From Oscillospiraceae bacterium (GTDB lineage Bacteria; Bacillota; Clostridia; Oscillospirales; Ruminococcaceae), in NCBI GenBank assembly GCA_014799325.1, contig JAAVIE010000020.1, positions 1 through 38,472 of the forward strand: DNA of 38,472 nt. The letters are read 5' to 3'. The notes under the pieces were generated by a model. That model ran no database searches. It was not told the DNA's origin and worked only from the letters and a program-made list of their open reading frames with translations. Position numbers and translations under genes: made by a program. Position 1 is the first letter of the stretch; each line of letters begins with the position of its first letter. Positions 4,693 through 18,331 of the stretch are shown here, one piece after another.

Positions 4693-5085
4693 TTATTCTT
4701 TAGTATTACCACAGCGTGTACAACAATTTAGGACATCATTATTTGAAGTCCCACATTTTTTGCAGATCCATGAACTTTTCGCAATAACAACTGCATTATT
4801 GTTGTTTACGTTTTCTTCGTTAGCATTTTCCGGATCTTCATTTGATAATGAAACATTTGACTTTTTACTTGAATGGTAAATATTGCTTGCGATTTCAATA
4901 AAAAGACCCCAAACTGCGTGTTCAATAGTTACTGCCACAACTCCACCGACAAACACCATCCACGCATCCGACCCCAAACATTTATCATCAGCAAAAAACA
5001 CAGTTAGAAAAATCACAAAAAAGAAAGAGGCAATCATACTAAAAATCAGCAATCCTTTATTAAACCTTATCCATTTGTCACTCAT
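4693..5085 (-). CDS. Small membrane protein with C-terminal zinc ribbon
   Basis: The 130-residue protein starts with MSDKWIRF, two hydrophobic helices follow (about residues 11-31 and 39-66), then a polar Asn/Glu-rich linker and a zinc-ribbon end with WICKKCGTS and NCCTRCGNT (two CxxC knuckles). Start chosen at 5085, where GGGAGG lies 6 bases ahead; an upstream in-frame ATG at 5124 lies in the operator region without a ribosome site. Function is unknown. It is transcribed from a consensus promoter overlapping palindromes shared with the divergent XRE gene, so that small repressor probably controls it. Confidence 0.75.
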   Translation of the reverse strand: MSDKWIRFNKGLLIFSMIASFFFVIFLTVFFADDKCLGSDAWMVFVGGVVAVTIEHAVWGLFIEIASNIYHSSKKSNVSLSNEDPENANEENVNNNNAVVIAKSSWICKKCGTSNNDVLNCCTRCGNTKE

Positions 5086-5115
5086 GTTTTCCTCCCAAAC
5101 TTTATAATAGAATTT

Positions 5116-5134
5116 ATATCCCAAATCGGGATAT
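5116..5134. promoter_or_regulatory. Palindromic operator candidate 1
   Basis: ATATCCC (5116-5122) and GGGATAT (5128-5134) form a perfect dyad around 5 bp. It sits just downstream of the leftward -10 box, so a bound protein would block the membrane-protein gene. Confidence 0.6.
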
Positions 5135-5138
5135 TTAC

Positions 5139-5167
5139 ATTATACCACATTGGTATAATATTGTCAA
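5139..5167. promoter_or_regulatory. Overlapping divergent promoters within a 21-bp palindrome
   Basis: ATTATACCA (5139-5147) and TGGTATAAT (5151-5159) are perfect inverted arms around CAT, so the -10 boxes of both directions lie in one dyad. Leftward: TTGACA (5167-5162), 17 bp, TATAAT (5144-5139), full consensus. Rightward: TATAAT at 5154-5159 with a poor -35. A repressor dimer here would control both the membrane protein and its own gene. Confidence 0.75.
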
Positions 5168-5180
5168 GGGGGTGACCGCT

Positions 5181-5390
5181 ATTTTCAGATTAAAGGAACT
5201 GCGAAAAAAGAAAAAGCTCTCACAAGTCAAAATGGCTATCGATTTAAATATGAATCAAAATTCTATTTCAAGATACGAAAACGAAGAAAGGGAGGCAGAC
5301 TACGAAACTCTGATTGCTATTGCAGATTACTTTGATGTTTCAATAGACTATCTTTTAGGTCGCACCGATTGCCCCAAAATGAATAAATGA
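5181..5390 (+). CDS. Small XRE-family (HTH_3) repressor, likely ATT start
   Basis: The roughly 69-residue protein is a single helix-turn-helix domain: FRLKELRKKKKLSQ, then NQNSISRYENEEREAD and ISIDYLLGRTD-type ending, typical of small XRE repressors. No ATG or TTG fits. GTG at 5172 lies within the ribosome site itself, whereas AGGGGGTGA (5167-5175) is 5 bases before an in-frame ATT at 5181, giving the usual family start MFRLKELR. I therefore prefer ATT; GTG 5172 (72 residues) is the alternative. The predicted transcript starts almost at the ribosome site. It probably binds the adjacent palindromes. Confidence 0.75.
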   Translation: MFRLKELRKKKKLSQVKMAIDLNMNQNSISRYENEEREADYETLIAIADYFDVSIDYLLGRTDCPKMNK

Positions 5391-5400
5391 CAAACATAGA

Positions 5401-5440
5401 AAAAGCCTTGGAGAAAACCTTTTACTTCTCCAAGGCTTTT
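5401..5440 (+). terminator. Terminator after the XRE gene
   Basis: AAAAGCCTTGGAGAA (5401-5415) pairs perfectly over 15 bp with TTCTCCAAGGCTTTT (5426-5440), ending in T's. The symmetric A/T flanks allow use from both strands, so it can also end the leftward erm-HD transcript. Confidence 0.85.
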
Positions 5441-5465
5441 TACAAGCCAAACATTATTTAAAATA

Positions 5466-6062
5466 TTACGGAAAAAGAATAACCCCATTACTTTCTTTCA
5501 GCATACGTTCCGCAAAGCTCTTGACATAGCTGCGCCTTTCGTCATAGATCCTTTGACTTATCTCAAAATGGATCTTATTAAACGGCGAAAACTTACTGTC
5601 ATCAAGCAAAAGATAAGCCGCATCGGTCATAGACATCTTTTCCTTTAAAGCATACTGAAAATAATTCCATACCTCAAAGGTTCCGAAGTGGTCAAGAAGA
5701 TCGGCATCCTGATGAATTTTTTCGTCTGTGGAAAGGTCGGATTTCGTTCTCTCGTCATGTACGGAAATTATTCTGTGTATGTCCTTTAATTCGCTTTCTG
5801 AGCAAAGATCATGCAGTAAAAGACTGGTTTTGGCTGCGCCTTTATTTTCGTGATGTTCTTCGCCGTTGCAAATATCGTGAAACCATGCAGAAACGATAAG
5901 AATTTCCATATTACCCGTATATCCGACTATTGGGCAAAGCTGTTTAATAATTTCAGCCGTGCGCTGTCCGTGATAGTATTTATTTCCTGGTTCTTTAAAG
6001 GGGTGGCTTGATTTTGTTTTCATCTCTCTGGCAGCTATCTCAGATATTTTTTGTAAGTTCAT
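5466..6062 (-). CDS. HD-domain phosphohydrolase
   Basis: The 198-residue protein has the HD metal-site residues in order: YYHGQR (H31), AWFHDICNG (H62-D63), and HQDADLLDHFG (D119/D121). HD proteins hydrolyse phosphoesters such as nucleotides; the specific substrate cannot be told. GAGGAT lies 6 bases before ATG 6062, inside the end of the methyltransferase gene. The three-base gap to the erm-like gene implies one transcript, so its expression may follow antibiotic-dependent attenuation upstream. Confidence 0.8.
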   Translation of the reverse strand: MNLQKISEIAAREMKTKSSHPFKEPGNKYYHGQRTAEIIKQLCPIVGYTGNMEILIVSAWFHDICNGEEHHENKGAAKTSLLLHDLCSESELKDIHRIISVHDERTKSDLSTDEKIHQDADLLDHFGTFEVWNYFQYALKEKMSMTDAAYLLLDDSKFSPFNKIHFEISQRIYDERRSYVKSFAERMLKESNGVILFP

Positions 6063-6065
6063 GGC

Positions 6066-6845
6066 TTATCCTCTTTTGTTTTTACCAAAATTCAGCCAGC
6101 ATCGGAAAAGGCAAAGCCACTGTATATAAGAAACATCGCCTGTTTGCGGTATCTGCGGCAGTTTTTCCAATCTTAAAGCAGTTGAAATTTGTTTTTTTGT
6201 CAATAAGGGTCGAGAGCTAAATAAGCTTTTTTGGCTTTGTTCTAAAAATACTTTAAAATCATCTTTTTGAGAGGGTGGAATATCAAAGGTTTCTTTAAGT
6301 TTCATTTCCAACATAACAACATCGGTATTAGGTGCGGGGTGAAAATCGTTTCTGTTGAAATACCATATTATTTTGGAATCGAAAAATGGCTTTAAAAGCA
6401 GGGAATTGATATTATCTTTGGGTAATCCGCAAAAACGTTTTGCCGCACCTTTTTCCATAATAAGCCAGATGCTTTCAGGTAGATCATGAGCGGATGTCAG
6501 CTTGCGAATTATCTCTGTGGTTTTTGAAAAGGGAATATTTGCAAAAACCTTATATGGAGAGGATGGCAGCTTTGATTTGAGAAAATCTCCATAATACAGC
6601 TTTACATTGCCGTTAAGCTGAGGTTTAAGATGAGTGTACAGCTTTTCATCAATTTCATAAGAAATAACTTTTTTGCATTTTTCAGAAAGAGCTTTTGTGA
6701 TGTGACCTTTTCCTGCACCTATTTCAAGCACTGTGTCACAGCTTGCTATTGTGGTTATGGAAATAAGCTTGTTAATTATTTTTCTGCTTGTTAAAAAATT
6801 TTGTGATACCCAATAGGGCGAGTTATTGCCTTGTTTTTTGGACAT
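6066..6845 (-). CDS. Erm-type 23S rRNA adenine N6-methyltransferase
   Basis: The 259-residue protein matches the Erm/KsgA fold and is closer to Erm: SQNFLTS at 14-20, SAM motif EIGAGKGHIT at 41-50, acidic YEID at 63-66, GDF near 86, catalytic NIPF at 103-106, and FHPAPNTDVVML at 168-179. Erm enzymes methylate A2058 of 23S rRNA and give macrolide-lincosamide-streptogramin B resistance. The start is ATG 6845 with GAGGTG ahead; an in-frame ATG at 6893 lies in the attenuator stem. A leader peptide, a terminator-like hairpin and a strong promoter precede it, as in inducible erm genes. KsgA (16S) is less likely given NIPF and the leader. Divergent from Erm(B) and Erm(F) as I recall them. Confidence 0.85.
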   Translation of the reverse strand: MSKKQGNNSPYWVSQNFLTSRKIINKLISITTIASCDTVLEIGAGKGHITKALSEKCKKVISYEIDEKLYTHLKPQLNGNVKLYYGDFLKSKLPSSPYKVFANIPFSKTTEIIRKLTSAHDLPESIWLIMEKGAAKRFCGLPKDNINSLLLKPFFDSKIIWYFNRNDFHPAPNTDVVMLEMKLKETFDIPPSQKDDFKVFLEQSQKSLFSSRPLLTKKQISTALRLEKLPQIPQTGDVSYIQWLCLFRCWLNFGKNKRG

Positions 6846-6883
6846 AAAAATACACCTCATTTTGCAAAATTTGTTGATTACGC

Positions 6884-6926
6884 AAAAAGGCATAGCTATA
6901 CCGCTGTAAAAATAGGTATGCTATGC
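6884..6926 (-). promoter_or_regulatory. Attenuator/terminator hairpin in the erm leader
   Basis: On the minus strand GCATAGCATACC (6926-6915) pairs with GGTATAGCTATGC (6902-6890), one bulged base, and is followed by CTTTTTG. It lies right after the leader peptide and before the erm ribosome site, the arrangement of an intrinsic terminator used for attenuation. Leader bases AATTTGT can also pair with ACAAATT downstream, a possible alternative fold. Confidence 0.75.
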
Positions 6927-6929
6927 AAT

Positions 6930-6959
6930 TTAGCGAATACGACAAATTCTGTTGATCAT
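6930..6959 (-). CDS. Erm leader peptide MINRICRIR
   Basis: A nine-codon frame with its own ribosome site (GAGGT, six bases ahead of ATG 6959) encodes MINRICRIR and stops at 6930. The ending R-I-R matches the +X+ macrolide-arrest motif known from leader peptides such as ErmDL (R-L-R). In that mechanism a drug-bound ribosome stalls at the motif and changes the downstream RNA fold. The position before a terminator-like hairpin and an erm gene strongly supports regulation by stalling. It is too short for ordinary gene calling. Confidence 0.8.
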   Translation of the reverse strand: MINRICRIR

Positions 6960-7002
6960 GGGTGTACCTCAAATAATGTATAAACGAATTCTTAGATGAT
7001 TT

Positions 7003-7031
7003 ATTTTAGCATAGTTTTTATTATTTGTCAA
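7003..7031 (-). promoter_or_regulatory. Promoter of erm leader and erm-HD transcript
   Basis: On the minus strand TTGACA (7031-7026), 17-bp spacer, TAAAAT (7008-7003). The -35 box overlaps the last codons of the upstream methyltransferase remnant. Transcription would begin about 40 bases before the leader-peptide ATG. Confidence 0.85.
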
Positions 7032-7750
7032 CAGATGTCGGGATTTTTCTTGCATATATGGTATTCATTGCATGCTTATGAGGCTTACCGCCCGAATTGC
7101 AGTCAAATACCGTTTCAAAGCTCTCCTCTATATACCAGTCGTGATACAGCATAAGAAGCTCTCCGCTTTTCCAGTTGTAACGTGATGTATCCTTATCGGG
7201 AGGCACGGGAACAAAAGGCTTTTCTACAAACACATTAAATGTGTTTATGCCGTTTTCCTTGGTGTGGAGCTTGTAGTTTTCAATTATTTCCTGCCGCAGC
7301 TCGGGTTTGATGAAATGAAAAACGCCGCTTGAAAAGAGTATATCAAAATCCTTATCCAATCGGAAATCCAAAACATTTGCCTTAAATGCGTCAACATAAA
7401 CTCCCGCCTTATCGGCAAGTCTTTTGGTTTTTTCTATGCCGCTGTCGGTTATGTCAAAGGCACTGACGCTGTAGCCGCAGCGGGCAAGAAAAACAGCGTC
7501 CTTTCCTTCGCCGCAGCCTATGTCCAATATGTTTATCGGTTTTGTGGGCGGCATCAGCTCAAGAATTTTAAGGCACATATATGAGGGCTTTACTCCCCAA
7601 TAATATTCCTCGGAATTATAACGCCTTTCATAATCGCTTTCAATGTCAAAGTTATGGGAACAGCCCATCAGTCGGTCTATGCTTATATGAAGGATAGAGG
7701 CAATCTCGGGAAGAAGATACAGATCGGGAGAGGTTTGTCCGTTTTCCCAC
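7021..7750 (-). pseudogene. XRE-methyltransferase gene, 3' part (split by the element)
   Basis: This fragment begins inside a helix-turn-helix (WENGQTSPDLYLLPEIASIL, DRLMG) and continues into a class I SAM methyltransferase (INILDIGCGEGKDAVFLA, then FDIT and FDILFSSGVFHF). In place its only start would be GTG 7752 right after a stop, giving 243 residues without the first DNA-binding helices. The missing N-terminal 40 codons are at 16605-16725; joining at the GTGGGAAA core restores an open frame of about 280 residues reading AVSKWENGQTS. Intact relatives are transcriptional-regulator/methyltransferase fusions; target unknown. The gene lies immediately upstream of erm. If the element excises, function should return. 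Confidence 0.85.
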
Positions 7751-7763
7751 ACTTAAGGATACC
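7743..7763. repeat. Left attachment site of the integrated element
   Basis: Core TTTCCCAC (7743-7750; GTGGGAAA on the minus strand) is followed inside the element by TTAAGGATACC (7753-7763). The same core and the inverse arm occur at 16578-16612. The recombinase stop codon is only 12 bp further in, the usual position of an integrase next to its site. Confidence 0.85.
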
Positions 7764-7774
7764 ACAAAAGTTCT

Positions 7775-9394
7775 TTAATCGATCTTCCCGACAAAGCGGT
7801 AAAATATCTCTATTTCCTGCGTTCTGTTGCCGTTTTCGTCCTTAACCGCCTCGTGAACCACAATTTTATCAATCAGTTCATTAAGCAGCGGTGCGTTAAG
7901 CTCTGTTAGCTCGGTGTATTTGCGAACCAATGACAGCCACTTTTCCGCTCCATCGGTATTTTGTGCTGATTTGTCAAGCTTGGCTTGGAGTTCACACTTC
8001 TTGTTTTCAAGCTGTGTTTGCTCCTCTTGATACTTCGCTGAGAGCATCGCAAAGTTGCGGTCGGTGATCGCTTCTTTCGCCCTGTCTTCATACATTTTGG
8101 CGAACAAGTTATCAAGCTCCTGCAGACGTTTCTCGGTTTTCGTCAGCTCTTTTTTGGTACTCGCAGTCTCTTTCTCTCTTTGCTTATCGCCACTTTTCAG
8201 CAGACGCTGAAGCAGTTCTTTATCGTCTTTTTCGTGAGCCTGAGAGATCCAATATTGCAGTCTGCCAAGCACAACAGCATATATCACATCATACCGAATG
8301 TAGTGCTGTGAGCACTTGTCCTTTCCATACTCACTGTAGGTCGTGCAGAAAAAACATTTCTTTTCCTTTCGGGTAGCTGTTGCATTGTTGTGCATATACC
8401 GAAGCCCCCAACCGCAGTCCGCACATTTCAGAAGTCCTGCGAAAATTTGTGTTTCTCCACTCTTTGCAGGTCGTTTTCGGCTGTTAATGTGCGCTTGCGC
8501 TTGCTCCCAAAGCTCTATTGAGATTATGGGTTCGTGAGTATTTTCTACAATGAACCACTCGTCTTTAGATTTGCGAATTTTCTTTTTGTTTTTGAAGGAT
8601 ATGGTGGTCTGCTTGTTGTGAACGCTGTTGCCGATGTACACCTCGCTGGATAAAATCGTTTTTATGTTTGCTGTCGTCCACTGGTGCTGCTTGCTCTCGG
8701 GTTGACCCTCAAAGATGTGCGCAAACGTTCCGTATTTTTGGTAGTTCAGCCATGCCGGAGTGGGTATGTGCTCATCATCAAGTATACGTCGTATTCTGCC
8801 CGCTCCAACTCCATGTGCTGCAAGATCAAATATCTTTTCAACTATCCACCTTGTATCCTCATCGGGAATGATTTTTCCCTTGATTTCGGGGTGCTTTTTG
8901 TAGCCTATAGGAGCATACGCTCCATAATGCGCTCCGCCTAAAAATCGAGTTTTCATAGCTGCCTTGACCTTTTTGCTGGTCTGACGGGCATGCATTTCAT
9001 TCAGAATATTTAGGAATGGAGCGATCTCACTTTCACCTTTCTCGCTGTCTACACCGTCACTGACTGCTATGTATCTGACACCCTTTGACGGGAAGTAAAT
9101 GTCGGTGTACTGTCCTGTGAGAATGTAGTTTCTTCCGAGCCTTGACAGATCTTTTGTGATTACACAGTTGATTTTTCCGTCCTCTATATCGTCAATCATA
9201 CGCTGGAAACTTGGTCTGTCGAAGTTTGTTCCCGACCAACCGTCATCAACATATTCGTCAACGATTCTGAGGTTTTGCTCTTTACAATACTGTGTCAAAA
9301 TATCACGCTGTGTTCCTATACTGCCGCTTTCGCCTTTCAATTCATCATCACGGCTGAGTCTTAAATAAAGTGCTGTATTATATTGTTGTTTCAT
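7775..9394 (-). CDS. Large serine recombinase (TndX/TnpX-like integrase)
   Basis: The 539-residue protein has the resolvase catalytic domain (YLRLSRDD with nucleophile S14; VDDGWSGTNFDRPSFQ at 49-64; KDLSRLGRNY at 81-90), a recombinase domain (about 155-310), a zinc ribbon with C324, C327, C350 and C361, a long charged coiled-coil (about 385-465), and a C-terminal conserved tail. This is the layout of integrases that move Tn4451/Tn5397-type elements with a 2-bp core and no target duplication. It probably integrates and excises this element through the flanking sites. Its gene ends beside the left attachment site. Ribosome site AGGAGG lies ahead of ATG 9394. Confidence 0.93.
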   Translation of the reverse strand: MKQQYNTALYLRLSRDDELKGESGSIGTQRDILTQYCKEQNLRIVDEYVDDGWSGTNFDRPSFQRMIDDIEDGKINCVITKDLSRLGRNYILTGQYTDIYFPSKGVRYIAVSDGVDSEKGESEIAPFLNILNEMHARQTSKKVKAAMKTRFLGGAHYGAYAPIGYKKHPEIKGKIIPDEDTRWIVEKIFDLAAHGVGAGRIRRILDDEHIPTPAWLNYQKYGTFAHIFEGQPESKQHQWTTANIKTILSSEVYIGNSVHNKQTTISFKNKKKIRKSKDEWFIVENTHEPIISIELWEQAQAHINSRKRPAKSGETQIFAGLLKCADCGWGLRYMHNNATATRKEKKCFFCTTYSEYGKDKCSQHYIRYDVIYAVVLGRLQYWISQAHEKDDKELLQRLLKSGDKQREKETASTKKELTKTEKRLQELDNLFAKMYEDRAKEAITDRNFAMLSAKYQEEQTQLENKKCELQAKLDKSAQNTDGAEKWLSLVRKYTELTELNAPLLNELIDKIVVHEAVKDENGNRTQEIEIFYRFVGKID

Positions 9395-9495
9395 TTATTT
9401 TTACCTCCTGTTATGAAACAACCCGCATTACAACACATTGTTTACAACTGCATTATACCATAATACGGGCGTAATGTCTATCTTTTTTTCAAAAA

Positions 9496-9747
9496 TTATC
9501 CTGCCATTTCGGCGCGTTTTTCGTACTTAATGGCACTCTCTACAAGGTCAAGGGCTGTCACTTTTGTTTCGGCGAAGTGTTCCTTGATCTTTATTTTTGT
9601 CTTGCCATTGATGTAATAGAGTACATTATCTATCACCGAAAATCCGTCTTTCACAGCGTTTGACTTTCCATTTTCAACCTCTCCTCGTCTGTTGAAAAAC
9701 AGCAAACATGATTTGAAAAATATTTTCATTCTGTTAAACTTAGTCAT
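9496..9747 (-). CDS. TnpW-like small element protein
   Basis: The 83-residue protein ends with VLYYINGKTKIKIKEHFAET and an ALDLVESAIK helix. This resembles small transposon-encoded TnpW-family proteins, which have an IGKTTY-V-VHFS pattern and usually sit beside serine recombinases in clostridial elements. Function is unknown. ATG 9747 overlaps the stop of the ribbon-helix-helix gene by four bases (ATGA), indicating translational coupling. The N-terminal 30 residues are basic and atypical, so the family call is tentative. Confidence 0.65.
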   Translation of the reverse strand: MTKFNRMKIFFKSCLLFFNRRGEVENGKSNAVKDGFSVIDNVLYYINGKTKIKIKEHFAETKVTALDLVESAIKYEKRAEMAG

Positions 9748-10232
9748 ATATCTTCCTCCATAAAATCATAATCATCTATCGTGTACTCGTTGACATAGGT
9801 ATCCTCATCGGTGCCGTTGACCGATATTTTTTGTTCCGCCAACTCCCGATTATTTCTCGCAATAAGATCATCAAGATTTATTTTCCCACGAGTTCTGCGG
9901 ACATTTCTGATTGCTTCTTTTCGATATTCCTCCATGACTTCTGGAGGAATATCCGCCAGCTCCGACAGTATCATGATGATCATTTCAACCTCAACGGCGT
10001 AGCGGAATAACCCTTTTGAGATTTTTGTAACTCCCGCTTCGCTGCCCTTGACGATCTCATCAGCAAGCTCTTTTGCAATAATATTTTTATGCTTGCCAAG
10101 CTCCAAATCGGAAATGTATTTTTGGATAGCCGCTGCTATAAATTCGGAGCGTGATCTTGAGTTTTCCGCTGCGTACTTCTCACAAAGCTGAAATGTTTCC
10201 TCATCTAAGCTGATACTTGTCTTTTTTACCAT
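9744..10232 (-). CDS. Ribbon-helix-helix (CopG-like) DNA-binding protein
   Basis: The 162-residue protein begins with KKTSISLDEETFQLCEKY and SRSRSEFIAAAIQKYI, the beta-helix-helix pattern of RHH proteins, followed by a helical region and an acidic tail. The start ATG 10232 has GAGGT five bases ahead; an upstream in-frame ATG at 10295 lacks one. Such proteins commonly accompany serine recombinases in gut Firmicutes elements and may act as repressor or relaxosome accessory factor. The nearby palindrome and nic-like sequence at 10495-10555 are possible targets (inference). Confidence 0.8.
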   Translation of the reverse strand: MVKKTSISLDEETFQLCEKYAAENSRSRSEFIAAAIQKYISDLELGKHKNIIAKELADEIVKGSEAGVTKISKGLFRYAVEVEMIIMILSELADIPPEVMEEYRKEAIRNVRRTRGKINLDDLIARNNRELAEQKISVNGTDEDTYVNEYTIDDYDFMEEDI

Positions 10233-10494
10233 TTTTACCTCACTTTCCTGCGGTGTTACTTTTTTGTGTTGCTTAAAAGCCGTTAAATTCGGCATTTTTG
10301 ATATTTTGTCGCTTGTTGTGACACCTGAATTTCATACTTTTTGATTTTACAGCCACCTATGATTGACTCAATAAATCCCTTTACAATGCGGTCGGCTTTG
10401 CCGTCCGCTGTATCTGCGACACCGTCGCTTTAACTTGCATCAGAATAATACATCTTGCTTTTGCCCCCGGTTTGGCATAATGCACAATTTCATA

Positions 10495-10555
10495 TTCCCA
10501 CCAAAAGGCGCAAATTTTGGCGGGAACTATGCAGGGCGGCTTGGTATCCTGCCCG
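10495..10555 (+). other. Candidate oriT with IncP-like nic site
   Basis: TTCCCACCAAAA (10495-10506) and TTTTGGCGGGAA (10515-10526) are 12-bp inverted arms with one mismatch. About 25 bp on is TATCCTGCCCG (10545-10555), which matches the RP4/IncP nic region TATCCTG|CCCG; the cut would fall between 10551 and 10552. IncP oriTs likewise have a dyad bound by an accessory protein just upstream of nic. GCAGG/CCTGC arms surround the site. The element has no relaxase, so this would be used in trans. It is based on motif recall only. Confidence 0.55.
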
Positions 10556-10719
10556 TTGTCAAAGAGCTCACAAAACCCTCAATTTTTGCTGTTTAGGGGT
10601 GTTGTTTTTCATTTCGGTTTTACCAAGAACAGTGATAAAATAATACTACAAACTTTTGCTTTTAGAAATATGGAATTGAACTTTGCGTTTTATCCAAAGT
10701 TCAATTTCGGACATCTTTT

Positions 10720-11377
10720 TTGAAAAGTTACTGTCACCCGATTTCAATTTTTACCGTCACCCTTAAAGTTATTGTCACCCATCAAATCCTATTGAGAAAA
10801 CATTTTTCAAAGTTGGGTGCCGGTAAGTCGGTAAAATTAAGGGGGAGCATTTTTACTGTCACTACCGTCACCCAACTGCAAAATAATTTTTCCTTTTGAA
10901 AATAAAACCGATTTTATCAATTCTCAAAATTGATTTCTTCTGTGACGATATGACGATATTTTTTGGGAAGATGTTTTTCTGATATATCGTCACGGCGTAA
11001 ATCAAAGCTGTGAAAGGATTTGTTGGGAATTTTGATTTTATCGTCACACCAAAATTTTAATCGTCATATCGTCATTGGTGTTTTGTGATAGTGTTAAAAT
11101 AATACTATGATTTTTTCCTTTTGAAAATATCAAAGTGTTCTTTGTGTTTTTTAGCAAAGAACACTTGGAGACATTCAATTATTTTTGCTAAGATATTTTC
11201 TGTAACTAATTCAAATCTAGCTGTCACTATTTTGCAGCAGTGCCGTCACTTTTTAAACTGCCGTCGCTGTCTATGATTCGCACGAGTAAAGCATTTGCGG
11301 CAATCGTAGTGACGGCAGTGACAGCTATTTTTACCCTCGGGTTTCAGCCGTCACTTTTTCAGTTTTAGTTCGCCCAA
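10720..11377 (-). pseudogene. GTCAC-rich non-coding stretch, possible decayed gene
   Basis: No convincing gene is seen between 10233 and 11565. This part is dense in GTCAC/GTGAC and CGTCA motifs (for example 10733, 10756, 10774, 10867, 11042, 11243), some spaced about 20 bp. An AAGGAGG ribosome site at 11392-11386 precedes a TTG at 11377, but that frame stops after eight codons; another frame downstream is open as AVTAVTTIAANALLVRIIDS. This could be the remnant of a replication or primase-type gene, or a repeat-based origin. The region 10556-10719 shows nothing specific. Confidence 0.3.
11218..11327. repeat. Bipartite inverted repeat in the GTCAC-rich region
   Basis: TAGCTGTCAC (11218-11227) and TGCCGTCACT (11241-11250) together are the exact reverse complement of one uninterrupted 20-bp stretch at 11308-11327. 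Two separate blocks facing one fused block suggests DNA-level structure or protein binding, not coding constraint. Confidence 0.6.
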
Positions 11378-11410
11378 TAAATTATCCTCCTTGTCAAGTC
11401 ATTTGCAGAA

Positions 11411-11440
11411 GAAAAAATCCCCAACCTGTTAGGCGGGGAT
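11411..11440 (-). terminator. Terminator of the defence-type operon
   Basis: On the minus strand ATCCCC (11440-11435) pairs with GGGGAT (11422-11417), then TTTTT follows. It lies about 255 bp after the ATPase stop and is the first clear leftward terminator of the four-gene operon. Confidence 0.8.
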
Positions 11441-11565
11441 CATGTCTTCTATATACTTCCGACACAAGGGAAGCAAATTATTCCATTGGTGGAAGAAGAA
11501 TTTTATTTTTGTATAGTTGCATAAAAATTTATTATAATTTTGTGCAAATTCGCAATAATGTCGTT

Positions 11566-11694
11566 TTAATTTTTATCTTTGTGCTTTTCATATCTTTTTT
11601 TGAAATTGTTATATGCGAAATTCTGAGCCGTTTGGCAATTTAACTCTGTTAATTGTATTTTGAGTATCTCATTAGCTTTTAACAAAATATGCAA
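11566..11694 (-). CDS. Possible 42-residue tail frame after the ATPase gene
   Basis: A TTG-started frame beginning two bases after the ATPase stop reads LHILLKANEILKIQLTELNC and continues to a lysine-rich end (KRYEKHKDKN). Composition looks protein-like, but no ribosome site is visible. It may be a frameshifted former C-terminus of the ATPase, a coupled small gene, or chance. Confidence 0.25.
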   Translation of the reverse strand: MHILLKANEILKIQLTELNCQTAQNFAYNNFKKRYEKHKDKN

Positions 11695-11695
11695 A

Positions 11696-13252
11696 TTAAA
11701 CTATTATTTCGGCATTTATTTGTTTAGCAATAATATTATATGCGTTTCTGAAATTATTCATAAAACTTTCGTATTCTTCTTTGTTAGTAACCATCCAATA
11801 TTTTATTAATTTTTTGTATCCTTTTCCAAAATTGCTTTTGACAGAGTCAAACCATTTCTTGTACATATCAGAATCCGATTTATCATCGAGTGTCGGATAT
11901 TTTAAAAAGCATTTGTTTTTATCAAATCCACCTATAGAATTATCCCAAAAAATATCATCATCTGGTAAATTAAAAAGAAATTTATAAAACATTTTTTCTG
12001 GGCAAAAAGTAGATGGCAAAAAGATCACATTTTGAGCTTTAATGGATTTAAGTTTGTTATTAGTTTTTGTATTATTCTTGTCTCCGTCTAAAACAATAAC
12101 AGATTCAACTATTTGCTTTAATTGAACTCTTAGCAATTCCCCATATTCTTCCGCACCTATTGAACATGACATAATTCTATAATATTTATTGTAATTAGTC
12201 AAAAATTGCCTAAGGATACTTCTAGCTACAACATCTTCGCAAAAAATATCTATTTTTTTAACCTTTTTATTTTTCTTTACCACCTCACCTGACAGTTCTG
12301 AAATCACACTATCTACATCAGGATTATTGTATCCTTGCACTTTATCGCCAACTTTCTTTAAATATAGCATTTGAGCCTCACCTTTATTATATTTATCAAA
12401 AGTTGATTTTATTACAGTTGGAGAATGAGTTGTAAAAATAAATTGAATTTTATAATCTTTTGCATATTTATAAATGCGCTTAATCAACATCATTTGGGAA
12501 GCAGGATGTAATGTTGATTCAATTTCATCTATAAGTAATATTCCTCCCTTGTAATCATTAGGAAAAGTTTCTTTTAAACGTTTGAATGATAGTATGGCTA
12601 ATAAAATTTTTCCTATATTATCTTGTCCCGCTGAAATTGTTAATGCATCATATTCAGCTGGATAAATTGCAGCTGTATGCTTCTTAGCAGAAACAATTGT
12701 TTCCACTGATAAGTTACATATATTGGTTGAAGAAAAAATATTCCTGTATTCTTTATCAAGGAATTCCTTTTCCTCATCACTTAATTCAGCAACAGAATTT
12801 ATATTAATCTCTTCTCCTAATGGCGTAACTCTTTTTAAGCTAATATAGTAAACTGGAACTTGAGGATAACCCACACCTTTACCTTTTCCTTCTGTAGACC
12901 AAAATCTAATTTCTTTAGAGGTTTTATCTCTAAGTATACTATGAGCTTCAAAGGTATTGTTTTTGTAAATTCCATCATATAATTCTAAGCTCCATTTATG
13001 TTCTCCAGGTAAATCTTTATCAGTAAGTTTAAACTTTTCTTTAAATTGCGAGCAAAAATTATATCCATCTATTGTTTTTTCTCCAAACATTACATTATCT
13101 TTACCAATTGTAAAAGTTTGACTAAGAATACCCAAAATAGTTGTTTTCATCGTTCCGTTATATCCTACAATAGCTGTAATTTTTGAGCCAAGATCAAAGT
13201 CTATATTGTTTAAAGCTCGAAACTTTTCTATGTAAGCATGCTTGATAATCAT
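11696..13252 (-). CDS. AAA-ATPase with TOPRIM domain (OLD-like nuclease)
   Basis: The 518-residue protein has an ABC/SMC-like ATPase: KFRALNNIDFDLG at the start, P-loop GYNGTMKTT (30-38), signature-like ISAGQ (206-210), Walker B ILLIDEIE (238-245) and H-loop TTHSP (H276). A TOPRIM-like nuclease domain follows, with FCED (E339) and LDGD (D389, D391). This is the layout of OLD family proteins such as GajA; a fused PARIS-type ATPase/TOPRIM is an alternative. The P-loop has Met where Gly usually precedes Lys. GGAGG precedes ATG 13252; the gap to the Dam gene is 16 bp. It is the last large gene of the operon, probably a DNA-sensing nuclease (inference). Confidence 0.8.
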   Translation of the reverse strand: MIIKHAYIEKFRALNNIDFDLGSKITAIVGYNGTMKTTILGILSQTFTIGKDNVMFGEKTIDGYNFCSQFKEKFKLTDKDLPGEHKWSLELYDGIYKNNTFEAHSILRDKTSKEIRFWSTEGKGKGVGYPQVPVYYISLKRVTPLGEEININSVAELSDEEKEFLDKEYRNIFSSTNICNLSVETIVSAKKHTAAIYPAEYDALTISAGQDNIGKILLAILSFKRLKETFPNDYKGGILLIDEIESTLHPASQMMLIKRIYKYAKDYKIQFIFTTHSPTVIKSTFDKYNKGEAQMLYLKKVGDKVQGYNNPDVDSVISELSGEVVKKNKKVKKIDIFCEDVVARSILRQFLTNYNKYYRIMSCSIGAEEYGELLRVQLKQIVESVIVLDGDKNNTKTNNKLKSIKAQNVIFLPSTFCPEKMFYKFLFNLPDDDIFWDNSIGGFDKNKCFLKYPTLDDKSDSDMYKKWFDSVKSNFGKGYKKLIKYWMVTNKEEYESFMNNFRNAYNIIAKQINAEIIV

Positions 13253-13268
13253 ACAAAACCTCCACGAA

Positions 13269-14147
13269 TTAGTATAAGTTTATTTTTACTGATGAATTTG
13301 CCAATTCAATTTGTGTTGGGCACAAGGTCTTACTGCTAAAAATCATGATTTCCGAAGATTGCCCTTTGTTGGCCAAACTATAGATTAAGTCAAAATTTTT
13401 ACGATAATATTGGCGATACATATCAGAAATACTTGTAACATTATCGTATGTAATTAGCCATGGACAAGTTACAGTTTGACTTATTTGACTATATATTTCT
13501 GTATGATCTTTTGGTAAAAAATAATTCTTATATAATTCCTTTCCTTTCTGAAAATAAGGAGGATCAAAATAAACAAAAGAATGTTCTTGATTTGGGATAA
13601 TTACTAAACGAATAAAATTTCGTATATCTTTGTTATATACTTTGATGTTATTCCGTCTCTGTGAAATAGAAGTAATTTTTTTTATTAAATCATCTTTATT
13701 AAATCTTGCATTGATAGGATAATTTCCATTTTTATGAATGCCACCTATTGGTCCAGCAGTAAGAATTCCTGAACGATTTGTCCTATTGAGAAAAAATGTC
13801 GCAAAGCCTAAGTCAAATGAGTATTTATGTCTATAGTTAGTGTAGATATTTTTTTGATTCTTCCATTCTTCAACAGTAACGTTAATTTCTTGTATTCTCT
13901 CAACAAATCTATTTGCTTCATAAATCGCTGCTTTCCAAAATGAGTATACAGCTTTGTCATAGTCATTAATAATAATATTCTCAACAACATTATTGAACAA
14001 TAAATCTAATGCCACACCTGCTCCACCGGCAAAAGGTTCAATATATGTATCTATTTCTCTATTAACTTTATTCTCAATAACATATCTAACAAAACTAGAC
14101 AATTTGGCTTTTCCTCCAGGATATCTTAATGGAGAATATGTTGTCAT
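13269..14147 (-). CDS. Dam-family (D12 class) DNA adenine N6-methyltransferase
   Basis: The 292-residue protein starts with SPLRYPGGKAKL (motif X), has SAM motif I YIEPFAGGAGVALDLL (35-50), and catalytic motif IV FVYFDPPY (191-198), in the alpha-class order of Dam and DpnM enzymes. It transfers methyl groups to adenine N6; recognition sequence cannot be read, although GATC is common in the family. Length is normal and key residues are intact. AAAGGACA lies ahead of ATG 14147. It is third in the operon, 24 bp after the DUF262-HNH gene, so a second methyltransferase of different class sits in the same unit. Confidence 0.9.
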   Translation of the reverse strand: MTTYSPLRYPGGKAKLSSFVRYVIENKVNREIDTYIEPFAGGAGVALDLLFNNVVENIIINDYDKAVYSFWKAAIYEANRFVERIQEINVTVEEWKNQKNIYTNYRHKYSFDLGFATFFLNRTNRSGILTAGPIGGIHKNGNYPINARFNKDDLIKKITSISQRRNNIKVYNKDIRNFIRLVIIPNQEHSFVYFDPPYFQKGKELYKNYFLPKDHTEIYSQISQTVTCPWLITYDNVTSISDMYRQYYRKNFDLIYSLANKGQSSEIMIFSSKTLCPTQIELANSSVKINLY

Positions 14148-14171
14148 AAAACCACTGTCCTTTCATAAGAC

Positions 14172-15266
14172 TTAAATATTACTTTTAACCCGGTTGCAAT
14201 CTTCGCAAAGCATTTGGCAATTATCTGAAATTGTTTTCCCTCCTTTGCTCCAAGGGGTAATGTGATCAGCTTGCATTTGTTCGATTTGAAAATGCTTTCC
14301 GCATTTGGGACACATACCCTTTTGACGTTCGTAGGCGGTTCGAGCCATTTTGGGCGTAAACAAACGAATATTTAAATGTCGTTCGTTCCCATCTAAAAGA
14401 TACTCGTAGATACCCTTTTGATTGGTGACATCTTCATCGTCAAGCAACTCAACTACTCGCATTTCAAGCACTTTTGGATCATATTTCTCTGTGCCGAATT
14501 TGTTGTAGAAAATACCCCATTCAAGACCTTTCATCAAATTTTTGCGGTAAGTTGGAAAAGTTACTTTTACCCAATTTATAACGGATTGAAAGTATAGCCA
14601 CAACTCACTACAATTTGTCTCATGCTGGTGCTTTGACATATAATCTTCAATCTCGATATTCTCTCGTATCGCAATCCATTTTATTGCAGTTTCGAGATAA
14701 TCTTGCCGAATCGGTGAACCATTCATATATTCTCCTGCAATTTGATATGCCGGACATTGTGTTTTGCTAAAGTATTTCTTTGCTTCAGTAAGCCATTCAC
14801 CAGTGTATACGGCATTGCGCAACTCTTGATTGGAAAGTTTCTCGCCTGCTATATTAATGATTTTAAACCAATCCAATTTCTCCTTGTCGTTCCCCTCACA
14901 AATATATATCATAAGTGGATAATCAAGGATTTGCTTTTGTTCAGTATTTGTTAAATTGTCAAAAGCAAGATGATCAATAGAAAAATCGCCATTTACATAT
15001 TGACAAATACTGATTGTTCTTTGTTGACCATCAAGAACTTCATAGCTATCCTCACCGCTTTTTACCCAGTACATAACGTTCAACGGAAAATACTTCATAA
15101 TTGTACGAATTACCTCATCCCGTTGCTTGCCACTATATATAAATTCACGCTGAAAGGCAGGTCGGATATTGAGCTTGCCACCATATCCAACAACACCATT
15201 TTCCGCACTGTCAACATATCCGTTAACTATATCACGAACTTGAATCTCATGTAATTTTATATCCAT
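14172..15266 (-). CDS. DUF262 (DGQQR) domain fused to HNH nuclease
   Basis: The 364-residue protein has the ParB-like DUF262 signatures IRPAFQREF (34-42) and VLDGQQRTI (77-85), then a helical middle and a C-terminal HNH nuclease: CPKC (319-322), ADH (333-335), N349, CEDCN (354-358). In GmrSD, SspE and BrxU proteins the DGQQR domain is an NTPase coupled to an HNH (DUF1524) nuclease that attacks foreign or modified DNA. Here the HNH is the compact zinc type, not DUF1524. AGGAT precedes ATG 15266; the gap to the upstream methyltransferase is 9 bp. It is the likely restriction partner (inference). Confidence 0.88.
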   Translation of the reverse strand: MDIKLHEIQVRDIVNGYVDSAENGVVGYGGKLNIRPAFQREFIYSGKQRDEVIRTIMKYFPLNVMYWVKSGEDSYEVLDGQQRTISICQYVNGDFSIDHLAFDNLTNTEQKQILDYPLMIYICEGNDKEKLDWFKIINIAGEKLSNQELRNAVYTGEWLTEAKKYFSKTQCPAYQIAGEYMNGSPIRQDYLETAIKWIAIRENIEIEDYMSKHQHETNCSELWLYFQSVINWVKVTFPTYRKNLMKGLEWGIFYNKFGTEKYDPKVLEMRVVELLDDEDVTNQKGIYEYLLDGNERHLNIRLFTPKMARTAYERQKGMCPKCGKHFQIEQMQADHITPWSKGGKTISDNCQMLCEDCNRVKSNI

Positions 15267-15275
15267 TAAATAATC

Positions 15276-16313
15276 CTACTTTCTTTTTATTAAAAGCCTT
15301 CGATACAAGGTTTTACCTTTTATAATGTTTATGTCGTCCGAGAAATCTTGACCGTCATGAAAACGGCTGTCACCTAATATGACAAACTGATTGGGATTGT
15401 AGTATTGCATGAATGTAATTGGAACACCCATTATCCCATAATAATCACAAGGTATATCTGCAGTGCGACTCACCTCTATCGCATCATAGTTATCGTACTT
15501 AGGATAAGATTTTGAATCATAGTTTCTAAATAATGTCATATTTTCATGTCTTTTTTCTATATCAAGATTTGTAAACCAACAAATATTTCCCATTCTTCGC
15601 CACTTTTGTCCGTTTTCATCAATCTTAAAATCTGTTTTCTTTACTTCATATGTTTCGGGAACTTTAAACCAAAAATGACCATTATTATATCCAAGCCAGA
15701 CCTTGTTATCACGTATCAATGGCAATATTTCACGATATGTAACAGCGTTTTGATTCCCAACTATTATAAAACTCTTTTTATATTCCATAAGTTGAGCGAC
15801 ATATTCTCTAAATAGGGAAAACGGTGGATTTGTGACAACGATATCTGCTGTTTTCAACAACTCAACACATTCTGGACTACGAAAATCACCATCGCCTTCA
15901 AGAAGGGTTAGAATATTATTTCTGTTCTTTAAAAGATACTCAACATCAGCAAGATCAACACGTCCATCACCATTCTCGTCAGTTACTTCTGTGATTTCAA
16001 TTTTGTATGGTTTGCGTTGGTCTTCTGCAACCGCAACAACATTTTCATCACCAAAAAAATCAAGCTGTGAATATACAATTGGTGACGAAGCATAGCAGGT
16101 TGCAATAAGTTTCTTTAAACCCAGAGAGTTAAAATTCATTGCAAAATACTTGAAAAAATTGCTTTCGTATGGGTCATCACAATTACAAAATACCGTCTTG
16201 CCCTTAAAATGTAATTTATAATGTTTTAACTCACTTTCTATTAAAGAAAGTTGAGTGTAGAATTCATCTGCTTTATCAGAACGAGACATATGTAAATTAC
16301 TATTTCCCGACAT
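15276..16313 (-). CDS. EcoRI-family adenine-specific DNA methyltransferase
   Basis: The 345-residue protein resembles M.EcoRI: KADEFYTQ near 14-21, VFCNCDDPYESNFFKYF (41-57), GDFRSPEC (142-149), catalytic IVVTNPPFSLFREY (158-171), and WLGYN...GNICWFTNLD further on. The family methylates adenine N6, GAATTC in the type enzyme; specificity here is unknown and no EcoRI-like endonuclease gene is adjacent. It is first in the operon behind a consensus promoter, with AAAGGAAG ahead of ATG 16313. Leading with a methyltransferase is sensible for host protection before nuclease expression (inference). Confidence 0.88.
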   Translation of the reverse strand: MSGNSNLHMSRSDKADEFYTQLSLIESELKHYKLHFKGKTVFCNCDDPYESNFFKYFAMNFNSLGLKKLIATCYASSPIVYSQLDFFGDENVVAVAEDQRKPYKIEITEVTDENGDGRVDLADVEYLLKNRNNILTLLEGDGDFRSPECVELLKTADIVVTNPPFSLFREYVAQLMEYKKSFIIVGNQNAVTYREILPLIRDNKVWLGYNNGHFWFKVPETYEVKKTDFKIDENGQKWRRMGNICWFTNLDIEKRHENMTLFRNYDSKSYPKYDNYDAIEVSRTADIPCDYYGIMGVPITFMQYYNPNQFVILGDSRFHDGQDFSDDINIIKGKTLYRRLLIKRK

Positions 16314-16361
16314 TTTTATCTTCCTTTCAAATCTAGCAGTTTATCTAATAATCCATAGTAA

Positions 16362-16390
16362 AGTATACCACAAATACATAATTATGTCAA
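16362..16390 (-). promoter_or_regulatory. Promoter of the four-gene defence-type operon
   Basis: On the minus strand TTGACA (16390-16385), 17-bp spacer, TATACT (16367-16362), close to consensus. It lies 49 bp upstream of the methyltransferase ATG. No other promoter of this quality is seen within the operon, and gene gaps are 9-24 bp. Confidence 0.85.
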
Positions 16391-16509
16391 TTTTTTACAA
16401 TTATAATTACATAGTCTTGTTGCTTATAAATCACTTGGGATTTTATAGAAATAAAAATTTGTTATTAGCACTTTGGCATTTAGATTTTATTTTATATTAA
16501 TATAATAAT

Positions 16510-16533
16510 GACCGCAAGCTTATTGTTGCGGTC
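16510..16533. terminator. Hairpin near the right end of the element
   Basis: GACCGCAA (16510-16517) pairs with TTGCGGTC (16526-16533). On the minus strand AT-rich sequence follows without a clean T-run. It could stop transcription entering from the split host gene before the cargo promoter. Otherwise 16391-16577 shows nothing. Confidence 0.5.
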
Positions 16534-16577
16534 AGTTATTGGTATTAAGCAATGTAATTATAATGCGGGTTAAGCTT

Positions 16578-16612
16578 GGTATCCTTAACTCTGTTACTCA
16601 CCGGTTTCCCAC
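16578..16612. repeat. Right attachment site of the integrated element
   Basis: GGTATCCTTAA (16578-16588) is the exact inverse of the left arm, and TTTCCCAC (16605-16612) is the shared core. Joining both element ends gives a 48-bp dyad-flanked attP. On the host side the sequence continues as codons for AVSK of the helix-turn-helix. Confidence 0.85.
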
Positions 16613-16725
16613 TTGCTGACTGCCTGATAGGATATGTTTAAGCTATTTGCAAGCTCCTGCTGAGTCAGGTTCTGTTCCTTTTGGTAACGTGCAATGTTTG
16701 TGCCTATTGCTTTTTTGATTTCCAT
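16605..16725 (-). pseudogene. XRE-methyltransferase gene, 5' part (split by the element)
   Basis: From ATG 16725 the frame reads MEIKKAIGTNIARYQKEQ, then LTQQELANSLNISYQAVSKWE, a canonical XRE helix-turn-helix. Entering the element it adds only T-G-E and stops at 16594, a 43-residue truncated product. The rest of the gene resumes at 7750. AGGA lies ten bases before the ATG. The short product lacks the dimer and methyltransferase parts and is probably inactive. Confidence 0.85.
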
Positions 16726-16950
16726 TATTCAAAAATCCTTTCTTATACGCTTGGAGTTTCATAAATATTAGATCTTTTTTGTTCTATAATGCAGCTGCTT
16801 TGGTTCTTATCTGTATTTATTATAAAGATTATAAGCTTATTTTTCAATAACCGCATATTTGAGTTTTGAGAAAAAATCAACCAGTGGGCGAAAATGTGAA
16901 AGTGTTAAGGACATATTATTTTGATGATTTCAGAGAAGAGCCAATTATAA

Positions 16951-16993
16951 AAACAGCACCAAGCAGATTAAACATTTCCGTTCGGTGCTGTTT
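16951..16993 (-). terminator. Terminator after murD2
   Basis: AAACAGCACC (16951-16960) and GGTGCTGTTT (16984-16993) pair perfectly; on the minus strand the stem is followed by TTTT, so it ends the leftward mur transcript. From 16726 to 16950 no other feature is seen. Confidence 0.8.
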
Positions 16994-17026
16994 ATATTTG
17001 AGTTACAATTTTTTATAGCTTTATGA

Positions 17027-18331
17027 TTAAAGCCTATTCACCAATTCCTTAAAATGCTTACCCCTCTCCTCAAAATTCTTATAAAAACCATAGCTTGCAG
17101 CAGCAGGCGAAAGCACACAGCAACGCTTTGCCACGTCAAAAGCCTTTGCCACCGCCTCCTCCATATCCTTAACTCTGTAAACATTTGACTTAGTATTAAG
17201 CATATCGGCTATTCTGTAACCGCTGTCGGGCAGACAGATTATATTTTCAACCTTTCCGCTATTCAGAAAATCAACTAAAATATCATAGTTTATCCCTCTA
17301 TCCATACCGCCTATTATGACTGTATCGGCGTTAAAGGTGTTTACAGCGTTGATCGTGGCAAGGGGAATCGTGCTTATGCTGTCGTTGATGTACCTTACGC
17401 CGTTAACGGTCTTTACATATTCCATACGGTGTTCAAGCCCGTTAAAGCTGCTAACCGCTTCCACAGCCTTGTCAAGATCACAGCCTTGGTGCAGTGCGGC
17501 GCACAAAGCTATTCCAATATTATAGAGATTGTGCTTTCCCTCTAATTTCGGAGCAAGCTTTTCAATAGAAACAGGCTTTCCCTCAACAAAAATATCCTTG
17601 TCCGAAACATAAATATTCGCTTCTTCTTCCATAGAGGCGGTTATTTTTTTTGAGGGAAGGGAATTGACCGATTCGGTTTGCAGTGCTTTGTTATAGATCA
17701 GCAGGTCATCTTTTCCCTGATAACGGTAAATGTTCTCCTTGGCAGACTTGTAAGCATTGAAATCAACATAGTGATCCAGATGCTCCTCATAAACGTTGAG
17801 CAAAACGGCGGTTCTTGGTGATGCTTTAACATATTCAAGCTGATGACAGGACATTTCCATTACCGCAACAGTGTCTTTCTCCAAGGTGTCGACTACCGAC
17901 AAAGGCGGAATGCCGATATTTCCTATAAGCACCGCATTTTTGCCGCAATGGTTCAAAATATGTGTGATAAGGCTTGATGTGGTGGACTTACCCTTTGTGC
18001 CTGTTACTCCAATAGTGTAGTTGGGACAGAATCTTAAAAACAAGTCGGTTTGCCCTATGATCTTCTCCCTGTCCTTCTCGTCGATCTTATCCAAAAGGGC
18101 AATTCCAGGGGTTTTCATCACAATGTCGTATTCCTTTATGGGGTCAAGGTAGCTGTCGCCGCTGTAAAGGTTATATTTCTTTACATCATCAGTAAAATTG
18201 GGGTTCTGATCCGATATTCCTATCTCGCAGTCAAAGTCCTTTATCAAATCAAGGGTCGACTTTCCCTCGCGTCCAAAGCCAAGGATAAGAACCTTTTTTC
18301 CTTTAAAAAAAGCTTTTAGTTTTTCTCTCAT
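17027..18331 (-). CDS. murD2: MurD-family ligase, probably MurD2 (adds L-Glu to UDP-MurNAc-L-Ala)
   Basis: The 434-residue protein has the Mur ligase layout: N-terminal Rossmann VLILGFGREGKS (14-25), ATP loop GVTGTKGKSTTSS (108-120), central EMSCHQLE and NVYEEHLDHY, and GLEHRMEYV with ND near 300-315. Classical MurD adds D-Glu. Here the gene directly follows a MurL homologue (9-bp gap). In Xanthomonas such a pair is known to use L-Glu: MurD2 adds L-Glu and MurL epimerises it. I therefore assign MurD2, though ordinary MurD activity cannot be excluded from sequence alone. Confidence 0.8.
   Translation of the reverse strand: MREKLKAFFKGKKVLILGFGREGKSTLDLIKDFDCEIGISDQNPNFTDDVKKYNLYSGDSYLDPIKEYDIVMKTPGIALLDKIDEKDREKIIGQTDLFLRFCPNYTIGVTGTKGKSTTSSLITHILNHCGKNAVLIGNIGIPPLSVVDTLEKDTVAVMEMSCHQLEYVKASPRTAVLLNVYEEHLDHYVDFNAYKSAKENIYRYQGKDDLLIYNKALQTESVNSLPSKKITASMEEEANIYVSDKDIFVEGKPVSIEKLAPKLEGKHNLYNIGIALCAALHQGCDLDKAVEAVSSFNGLEHRMEYVKTVNGVRYINDSISTIPLATINAVNTFNADTVIIGGMDRGINYDILVDFLNSGKVENIICLPDSGYRIADMLNTKSNVYRVKDMEEAVAKAFDVAKRCCVLSPAAASYGFYKNFEERGKHFKELVNRL

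Follow-up and report, generated by a model that had tools for sequence, protein, structure and literature searches.

Two methylase-nuclease pairs, probably independent modules, as the defence cargo of a serine-recombinase element in an Oscillospiraceae bacterium

The window analysed here is a stretch of 38,472 nucleotides from an Oscillospiraceae bacterium (GenBank assembly GCA_014799325.1, contig JAAVIE010000020.1), in which an element of the serine-recombinase type carries four adjacent genes. These encode an EcoRI-family adenine methyltransferase and a DUF262-HNH nuclease (pair or module A), followed by a D12-class adenine methyltransferase and an OLD-type protein that joins an ATPase and a TOPRIM domain (pair or module B). 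A preliminary description had presented them as a candidate undescribed four-gene defence operon; the view that the four genes form a system of their own is not supported, since the four families were found together in no other locus examined, and the idea of a fixed four-family system was dropped. Judging from sequence, the locus is probably the defence cargo of an element of 8.9 kb, made of independent modules that would be co-transcribed, with A as a Type II-like restriction-modification (R-M) system and B as a system guarded by modification. The features of the locus are collected in Table 1.

Table 1. Features of the element and of its four cargo genes (window coordinates)
Feature	Position	Strand	Remarks
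Left element end	7743..7750		TTTCCCAC; end of the 3' part of the interrupted HTH-methyltransferase gene (open reading frame 7021-7752)
Large serine recombinase	7775..9394	-	Resolvase, Recombinase, Zn ribbon, DUF4368 (family scans)
Intrinsic terminator of the operon	11411..11440	-	folding energy of the 51-nt stretch -21.6 kcal/mol, z -4.98
Module B gene 2, OLD-type ABC ATPase + TOPRIM nuclease	11696..13252	-	518 amino acids (aa), phrog_3940 family
Module B gene 1, D12-class (Dam-like) N6-adenine methyltransferase	13269..14147	-	292 aa, PD-Lambda-5_B family
Junction of the two modules	14148..14171		24 bp; homology to relatives ends ≤20 bp from it on both sides
Module A gene 2, DUF262 (GmrS/ParB-like, DGQQR) + C-terminal HNH nuclease	14172..15266	-	364 aa
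Module A gene 1, EcoRI-family N6-adenine DNA methyltransferase	15276..16313	-	345 aa; PF13651, 464 bits
Promoter-like site	16362..16390	-	TTGACA-17-TATACT with TG ahead of the -10; start codon of the first gene approx. 50 bp downstream
Right element end	16605..16612		second TTTCCCAC; the 5' (HTH) part of the interrupted gene aligns from 16601 onwards

The boundary between the two modules is sharp. When window positions 5001-17100 were compared by blastn with the closest relative of pair B (locus L055; 59% identity in the methylase and 68% in the OLD protein), a single match was obtained, at 11717-14135; likewise, the comparison with a close relative of pair A (L256; 72 and 76% identity) gave a single match, at 14191-16346. 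The four families were together in none of 80 viral loci with the OLD gene, 18 viral loci with the DUF262-HNH gene, eight genomes, four plasmid loci and 17 other OLD loci, counts in which some contigs stop soon after the nuclease gene and the eight genomes of the class exclude the window's own. This separate recurrence, together with the sharp boundary, supports one of the models offered at the outset, that of two stacked modification-restriction pairs. The defence classifier PADLOC places each half in known families (MTase_II and REase_II for A, PD-Lambda-5_B for B). The G+C content is 0.353 in pair A and 0.288 in pair B, and at third codon positions it is 0.27-0.34 versus 0.20.

The four open reading frames (ORFs) are intact and form one close-packed set on the minus strand, with intergenic gaps of 9, 24 and 16 bp; the ORF list and the family scans agree on this point with the preliminary description, both in the arrangement and in the families of the parts, and the alignments of each family revealed catalytic residues in all four proteins. 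The close gaps, one promoter-like site and one terminator hairpin also uphold the single unit that had been proposed, from which all four genes would be co-transcribed. The promoter-like site, which has a TG ahead of its -10, fits the consensus at 11 of 12 positions; nevertheless, between positions 9000 and 19000 there are 61 such sites against 39.1 (standard deviation 6.2) in shuffled sequences, and being only 1.6 times commoner than in shuffles, the promoter claimed earlier stands as a match to the consensus and not as a proven promoter. The terminator had been correctly recognised: none of 200 shuffled sequences folded as well as its 51-nt stretch, and a run of U comes next. It is located approx. 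255 bp beyond the last stop codon of the operon and is absent from the list of a simple terminator scan.

The carriage of these genes on a mobile element, also part of the earlier account, is supported by a congeneric genome (G265, contig 5) with an uninterrupted gene for an HTH-SAM-methyltransferase (TehB-like) of 201 aa, open at the contig end. Parts of this gene align to window positions 7271-7750 and 16601-16704, which flank the stretch from the recombinase to the operon; the element (approx. 7743-16612) sits within the window's copy of the gene. The word TTTCCCAC is one of nine 8-mers common to both stretches compared, but it is the one present at both alignment breaks. From the breaks and this repeated word, a unit of approx. 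8.9 kb can be delimited, with the four genes as its only evident cargo next to the recombinase, two small ORFs and a noncoding stretch rich in repeats. The D12 methylase was not found in either of the congeneric genomes searched (G265 and G519; E 1e-20), nor was a DUF262-HNH enzyme of the window's family found in G265 (E 1e-30). The noncoding stretch (10720-11360), between the recombinase genes and the cargo, contains many GTCAC and GACGAT words in direct and inverted orientation, and a symmetrical hairpin of 9 pairs (16509-16534), which could end transcription, is located between the right end of the element and the promoter-like site.

Module A looks like a Type II-like R-M pair of an already known kind. 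Its methylase matches the MTase_II family of PADLOC (421 bits) and has an intact NPPF motif that is invariant in 22 sequences. The nuclease shows a GmrSD_N (DUF262) domain (62 bits) and an HNH domain (50 bits) in Pfam, and matches the PADLOC model REase_II PDLC03418 over its full length (477 bits); residues D79-R83 (DGQQR), D334, H335, N349 and N358 are invariant in 28 sequences. The R-M models of PADLOC derive from REBASE. The predicted structure of the nuclease (pLDDT 87.8) gave no structural match at E ≤0.001, the best weak matches in the PDB being BrxU (E 2.2e-3), Noc/ParB, McrA (6ghc), which its HNH half resembles, and an HNH protein (4h9d).

The two genes of pair A are kept together in viral, genome and plasmid loci, as in a Type II tandem pair with matching methylase and nuclease. 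In all 18 viral contigs retrieved with the DUF262-HNH protein, the ORF of an EcoRI-type methylase is the next scored gene upstream, at a distance of up to approx. 300 bp; pair B was not seen in the DNA present on these contigs, which after the nuclease gene amounts to 2, 256 and 809 bp in three and to at least 1.8 kb in fifteen. Nine of 391 genomes of the class carry the DUF262-HNH enzyme (E 1e-30), the window's own included; the methylase is directly upstream in the other eight, where pair B was not seen within the 5.9-13 kb read. Pair A was likewise present, and pair B not seen, in four plasmid loci selected among 118 records. Some of these genes are incomplete: in L225 and L229 the contig begins inside the methylase gene, and L231, L232 and L258 have a truncated or partial nuclease gene (in L258, the contig begins inside it). 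Elsewhere, the same methylase family pairs with an annotated EcoRI nuclease. In a Lactiplantibacillus plasmid (L235, 2180-4282), an EcoRI-family methylase is contained in a protein of 700 aa annotated as dcm, possibly a methylase-nuclease fusion.

Regarding module B, the D12 methylase matches PF02086 (MethyltransfD12, 71 bits) and fits PD-Lambda-5_B (362 bits) better than any other PADLOC family; its motifs DPPY and PLRYPGGK are invariant in 13 sequences. The second protein was recognised by the Pfam models AAA_15 and AAA_21 (55 and 51 bits), and its TOPRIM half had no Pfam match of its own. However, in an alignment of 62 sequences, the window's included, the TOPRIM acidic residues E339, D389 and D391 are invariant, as are the Walker A, signature, Walker B and H-loop motifs. 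Residues 3-511 match phrog_3940 (334 bits), a family listed as of unknown function, and among the best 25 of 117 PADLOC matches the best model scores 71 bits. The AlphaFold2 model (pLDDT 91.6) has the OLD nuclease 6p74 as its best match in the PDB, followed by the Retron-Eco8 effector and GajA (best entries 6p74, 9lpa and 8u7i; E 6e-14 to 1e-11 overall); the whole-chain TM-scores are low, about 0.3, perhaps due to a differing arrangement of the two domains. With the ABC ATPase motifs and the TOPRIM acids in one chain and an OLD fold in the model, this protein belongs with the OLD family; the invariant acids and the match to 6p74 bear out the AAA-TOPRIM, OLD-like label that it had been given.

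The distribution of module B was followed in a viral collection, from which sets of up to 80 loci were taken, one retrieved with the OLD gene (80 loci) and another with the methylase (80 loci, L055-L134); at least 80 of each exist. Pair A was found in none of the 80 OLD-gene loci, and the D12 methylase was present in 66; of the remaining 14, five stop at the stop codon of the OLD gene. After clustering at 85%, the methylase is within 3 kb in 36 of 39 OLD clusters and within 200 bp in 35, a count that excludes the methylase-retrieved loci and that could be biased, given that the OLD profile used (A2) was built on 10 proteins, one of which (L045) was reached via the methylase. Another 17 OLD loci were obtained from genomes (seven strong matches) and plasmids (10 of 11 records; a second Edwardsiella plasmid, H8, of the same length as H7, was left out); the D12 methylase adjoins the OLD gene in 15 of these, and pair A was found in none. 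Over 74 clusters, methylase-retrieved loci included, the OLD gene comes first in 46, the methylase comes first as in the window in 16, and 12 show other layouts. The distances of methylase and OLD proteins correlate over 60 pairs (r 0.634; none of 5000 permutations was as high). OLD homologues with no methylase in the available DNA were seen in L189-L193, L195, L196, L213 and L153; in L190 a gene for an HTH-S24 repressor-like protein lies 3 bp upstream of the OLD gene, and at that place L189 carries an ORF of equal length.

So far as checked, pair B is apparently an unnamed and widespread variant. No name for it was found in the literature searched, the coverage of which ends short of a 2020 survey of ABC ATPases that perhaps describes the pair. 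According to PMC12796447, it is other partners that define OLD classes 1-5, and ten further clades are left uncharacterised, to any of which the methylase-OLD pair could belong; an earlier survey of TOPRIM-linked OLD neighbourhoods is mentioned in an excerpt of PMC12839542.

Another aspect of module B is that its methylase changes partners. Around the 80 methylase-retrieved loci, partners were called within 1.7 kb, and genes like subunit A of the PD-lambda-5 system (A-like) at 60 bits or more: an A-like gene alone accompanies the methylase in 39 loci, an OLD gene alone in 21, both in four, an A-like gene with a fragment of an EcoRI-type methylase in one, and neither partner in 15. In some of these last 15, there is a third partner set, formed by a HerA-like ATPase and a gene of 420-480 aa; it was seen in L057, L060, L065 and L080, and by layout only in L070. 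A-like gene, methylase and OLD gene occur together, for example, in L034, L035, L088, L126 and L260. In a FastTree phylogeny of 107 methylases, four partner labels require 30 changes, where the minimum possible is three, and the well-supported branches force at least nine changes for each of the two main partners. That the OLD gene can occupy the place of subunit A beside the methylase is the main reason to read the OLD protein as the effector of this methylase. Upstream of the methylase/HerA-like set, L057 and L060 have a Schlafen AlbA_2 gene; in L124, a 68-aa fragment of an EcoRI-type methylase lies 1 kb behind PD-lambda-5-like genes, near the contig end.

EcoRI recognises GAATTC. In the mechanism proposed here, the EcoRI-family methylase of module A would mark the host DNA, likely at GAATTC or near it, and the DUF262-HNH nuclease, presumably gated by nucleotide, would cut unmarked DNA. 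The D12 methylase of module B would mark a second motif, and the OLD-type nuclease, as the effector, would be held off by this mark or by the methylase itself. Its release may follow upon unmarked or replicating phage DNA, or a block of methylation by an anti-restriction function, and may lead to degradation of the invader or to killing of the cell. Pair B is read most likely as a methylation-guarded nuclease. The window contains 13 GAATTC and 169 GATC sites, counts uninformative on the targets of the methylases.

Several observations weigh against two independent modules with a guarded nuclease in B. The four genes share the promoter-like site, gaps of 9-24 bp and the terminator, and they travel together, so they could act jointly. 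Three of the 39 OLD clusters, one of them at a contig edge, lack the methylase, as do two distant plasmid homologues (L267 and L268; 86 and 113 bits); therefore the methylase may not be a strict requirement for OLD genes of this kind. The correlation between methylase and OLD distances vanishes in 15 methylase-first pairs (r 0.109; 1101 of 5000 permutations were as high), and the partner labels are more clustered on the methylase tree than in shuffles (30 changes versus a mean of 47.1), i.e., partners are in part inherited and swapping is limited. Finally, some of the solved structures most similar to the DUF262-HNH model are those of Type IV enzymes, which act on modified DNA.

A bolder proposal, which we regard as less likely than not, is that the methylase-OLD pair, present on phages, plasmids and chromosomes, constitutes an unnamed OLD class and a separate defence system, in which the D12 methylase would license or restrain a TOPRIM suicide nuclease, and that in Firmicutes this pair has come to lie, more than once, behind Type II R-M pairs unrelated to one another, as a plug-in guard. 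If this is true, the four-gene operon would be one instance of a modular architecture of R-M plus methylation-sensing guard. A neighbouring explanation, rather unlikely in our view, is a layered system in which the methylase-OLD pair guards the R-M pair in front of it, senses anti-restriction or lost methylation, and kills the cell when R-M is disabled. What lies upstream of pair B bears on the layered system as well as on the reading as stacked modules. In L055, its closest relative, a complete-looking but unrelated Type II R-M pair is found directly upstream, 14 bp away: residues 57-507 of an ORF of 543 aa match MTase_II (360 bits) and an ORF of 217 aa matches REase_II (266 bits), the two overlapping as called, with the matched part of the longer starting where the shorter ends. 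Near these genes there are a Mob_Pre gene and DUF3987, and no recombinase like that of the window was found in this locus. Of the four-gene proposal a weaker statement survives, namely that the placing of a Type II R-M pair immediately in front of methylase-OLD is repeated once, with an unrelated R-M pair.

The neighbours scanned were a subset chosen by hand. As a raw count, a restriction-type gene is directly upstream in seven of the 16 methylase-first clusters (the window, L055 and five PD-lambda-5 A-like cases, one of which, L135, scores only 47 bits). On the other hand, no gene in the same direction lies within 120 bp upstream in eight of the 16, and in one there is an ORF of no recognised family at a contig edge. 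Two of those eight would suit the layered system: in L103 a Type I R-M set adjoins the pair on its other side, and in L067 there are, further upstream, two cytosine methylases and an MzaE-like gene; nevertheless, MzaE belongs to the named system Mza, and the L067 genes may be part of it. The 46 OLD-first clusters have no adjoining restriction gene of the modelled kinds except for L212, other neighbours being outside the scan, and defence genes cluster anyway. In favour of layering, PMC12839542 puts forward that OLD-ABC modules serve BREX as a backup layer of effectors.

A third possibility concerns the bond within module B. It supposes that the D12 methylase is a leftover or self-protection gene derived from PD-lambda-5, which its best fit among the PADLOC families would favour, and that the OLD protein acts independently, as an abortive-infection ATPase similar to class 1 OLD. 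The homologues with no methylase, i.e., the L189 cluster (with the HTH-S24 gene upstream instead in L190), L153 and the distant L267 and L268, point in the same direction; yet the retention of the methylase in nearly all non-redundant viral clusters and in most of the further genome and plasmid loci, along with the correlated divergence over 60 pairs, make such independence improbable. Even more doubtful is an SspE-like licensing, in which the DUF262-HNH nuclease of module A would need the EcoRI-type mark in host DNA for its activity instead of being blocked by it: according to PMC12707154, the DUF262 proteins SspE, BrxU and GmrSD either act on modified DNA or work through it, and the weak structural matches are to BrxU and, for the HNH half, McrA, but the position of the methylase in the 18 viral, eight genome and four plasmid loci is the usual Type II arrangement, PADLOC files the nuclease as Type II, and the methylase family pairs elsewhere with an annotated EcoRI nuclease.

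With the candidate four-gene system resolved into two modules with a sharp boundary, the pair of phrog_3940 protein and PD-Lambda-5_B-type methylase emerges as a large pair that recurs among viral contigs and bacterial genomes alike and for which no named function was found. One methylase family that swaps among three or more partner sets is also a natural setting for testing the control of a methylase over nucleases of unrelated fold; pair B also allows one to ask if OLD proteins respond to methylation.

Outside the element, positions 6066-6893 (minus strand) encode a protein near the Erm 23S rRNA methyltransferase family (204.5 bits, with a cut-off of 212), adjoined by an HD-domain protein (5466-6062). 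A tmRNA gene (1-210, minus strand), cut by the window edge, was detected with Rfam (53 bits) and was not reported by ARAGORN. Positions 293-472 have eleven matches (two of them overlapping) of 71-82% identity scattered over genome G265, and could therefore be a dispersed repeat of the genus.

Regarding known systems, module A is, by its sequence, a Type II R-M system with a DUF262-HNH nuclease. Both proteins match the PADLOC families REase_II PDLC03418 and MTase_II near full length; the order and close spacing are the same in the plasmid, viral and genome loci of this kind, and no sequence difference was found. Along its whole length, the methylase belongs to one family with that beside an annotated EcoRI (46.6% identity by tblastn, 51.7% in a global alignment); however, the nuclease of module A is an unrelated DUF262-HNH protein and the methylase gene comes first, and EcoRI proper was dropped on account of this nuclease. 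With GmrSD, BrxU and SspE, module A shares a DUF262 domain with DGQQR, an HNH-type C-terminus and the weak structural match to BrxU; it differs in that this C-terminus is a PF01844 HNH domain and not DUF1524, and in the methylase adjacent in every locus examined, and for these reasons a GmrSD Type IV enzyme was discarded. As for Menshen (NsnABC), the DUF262-HNH protein scores 96 bits with NsnA (against 477 for REase_II) and the ATPase 52 bits with NsnB; NsnC was not among the matches listed (for the ATPase, the best 25 of 117).

Module B shares with the OLD nucleases and GajA an ABC ATPase fused to a TOPRIM domain, as well as its best matches in the PDB. The partner of the OLD-type protein is here a DNA methylase, in contrast with the helicase of Gabija, the reverse transcriptase of retrons, the separate TOPRIM protein of PARIS and the lack of any partner in class 1. 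Among the ten genes scanned (5466-16313) there is no UvrD-like GajB helicase and no reverse transcriptase, which discards classes 2 (Gabija) and 3 (retron); as for a retron noncoding RNA, the window holds only the tmRNA at Rfam gathering scores. Class 4 (PARIS) was discarded because the ATPase and TOPRIM domains form a single chain and not separate genes. PD-lambda-5 proper was dropped as well, given that subunit A was not found: PDLC04017, the one A model searched genome-wide, found nothing (E 1), and the A-like model had no match in the window. Mrr is known to attack adenine-methylated DNA. PD-lambda-5 is a validated defence system (Vassallo 2022, PMC9519451); it is described there as what appears to be a compact prophage version of a system combining R-M and abortive infection, and the host used to test it lacked the mrr region. 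Module B resembles it in the D12 methylase, which is of the subunit B family, and differs from it in having an OLD-type ATPase-TOPRIM protein in the place of subunit A.

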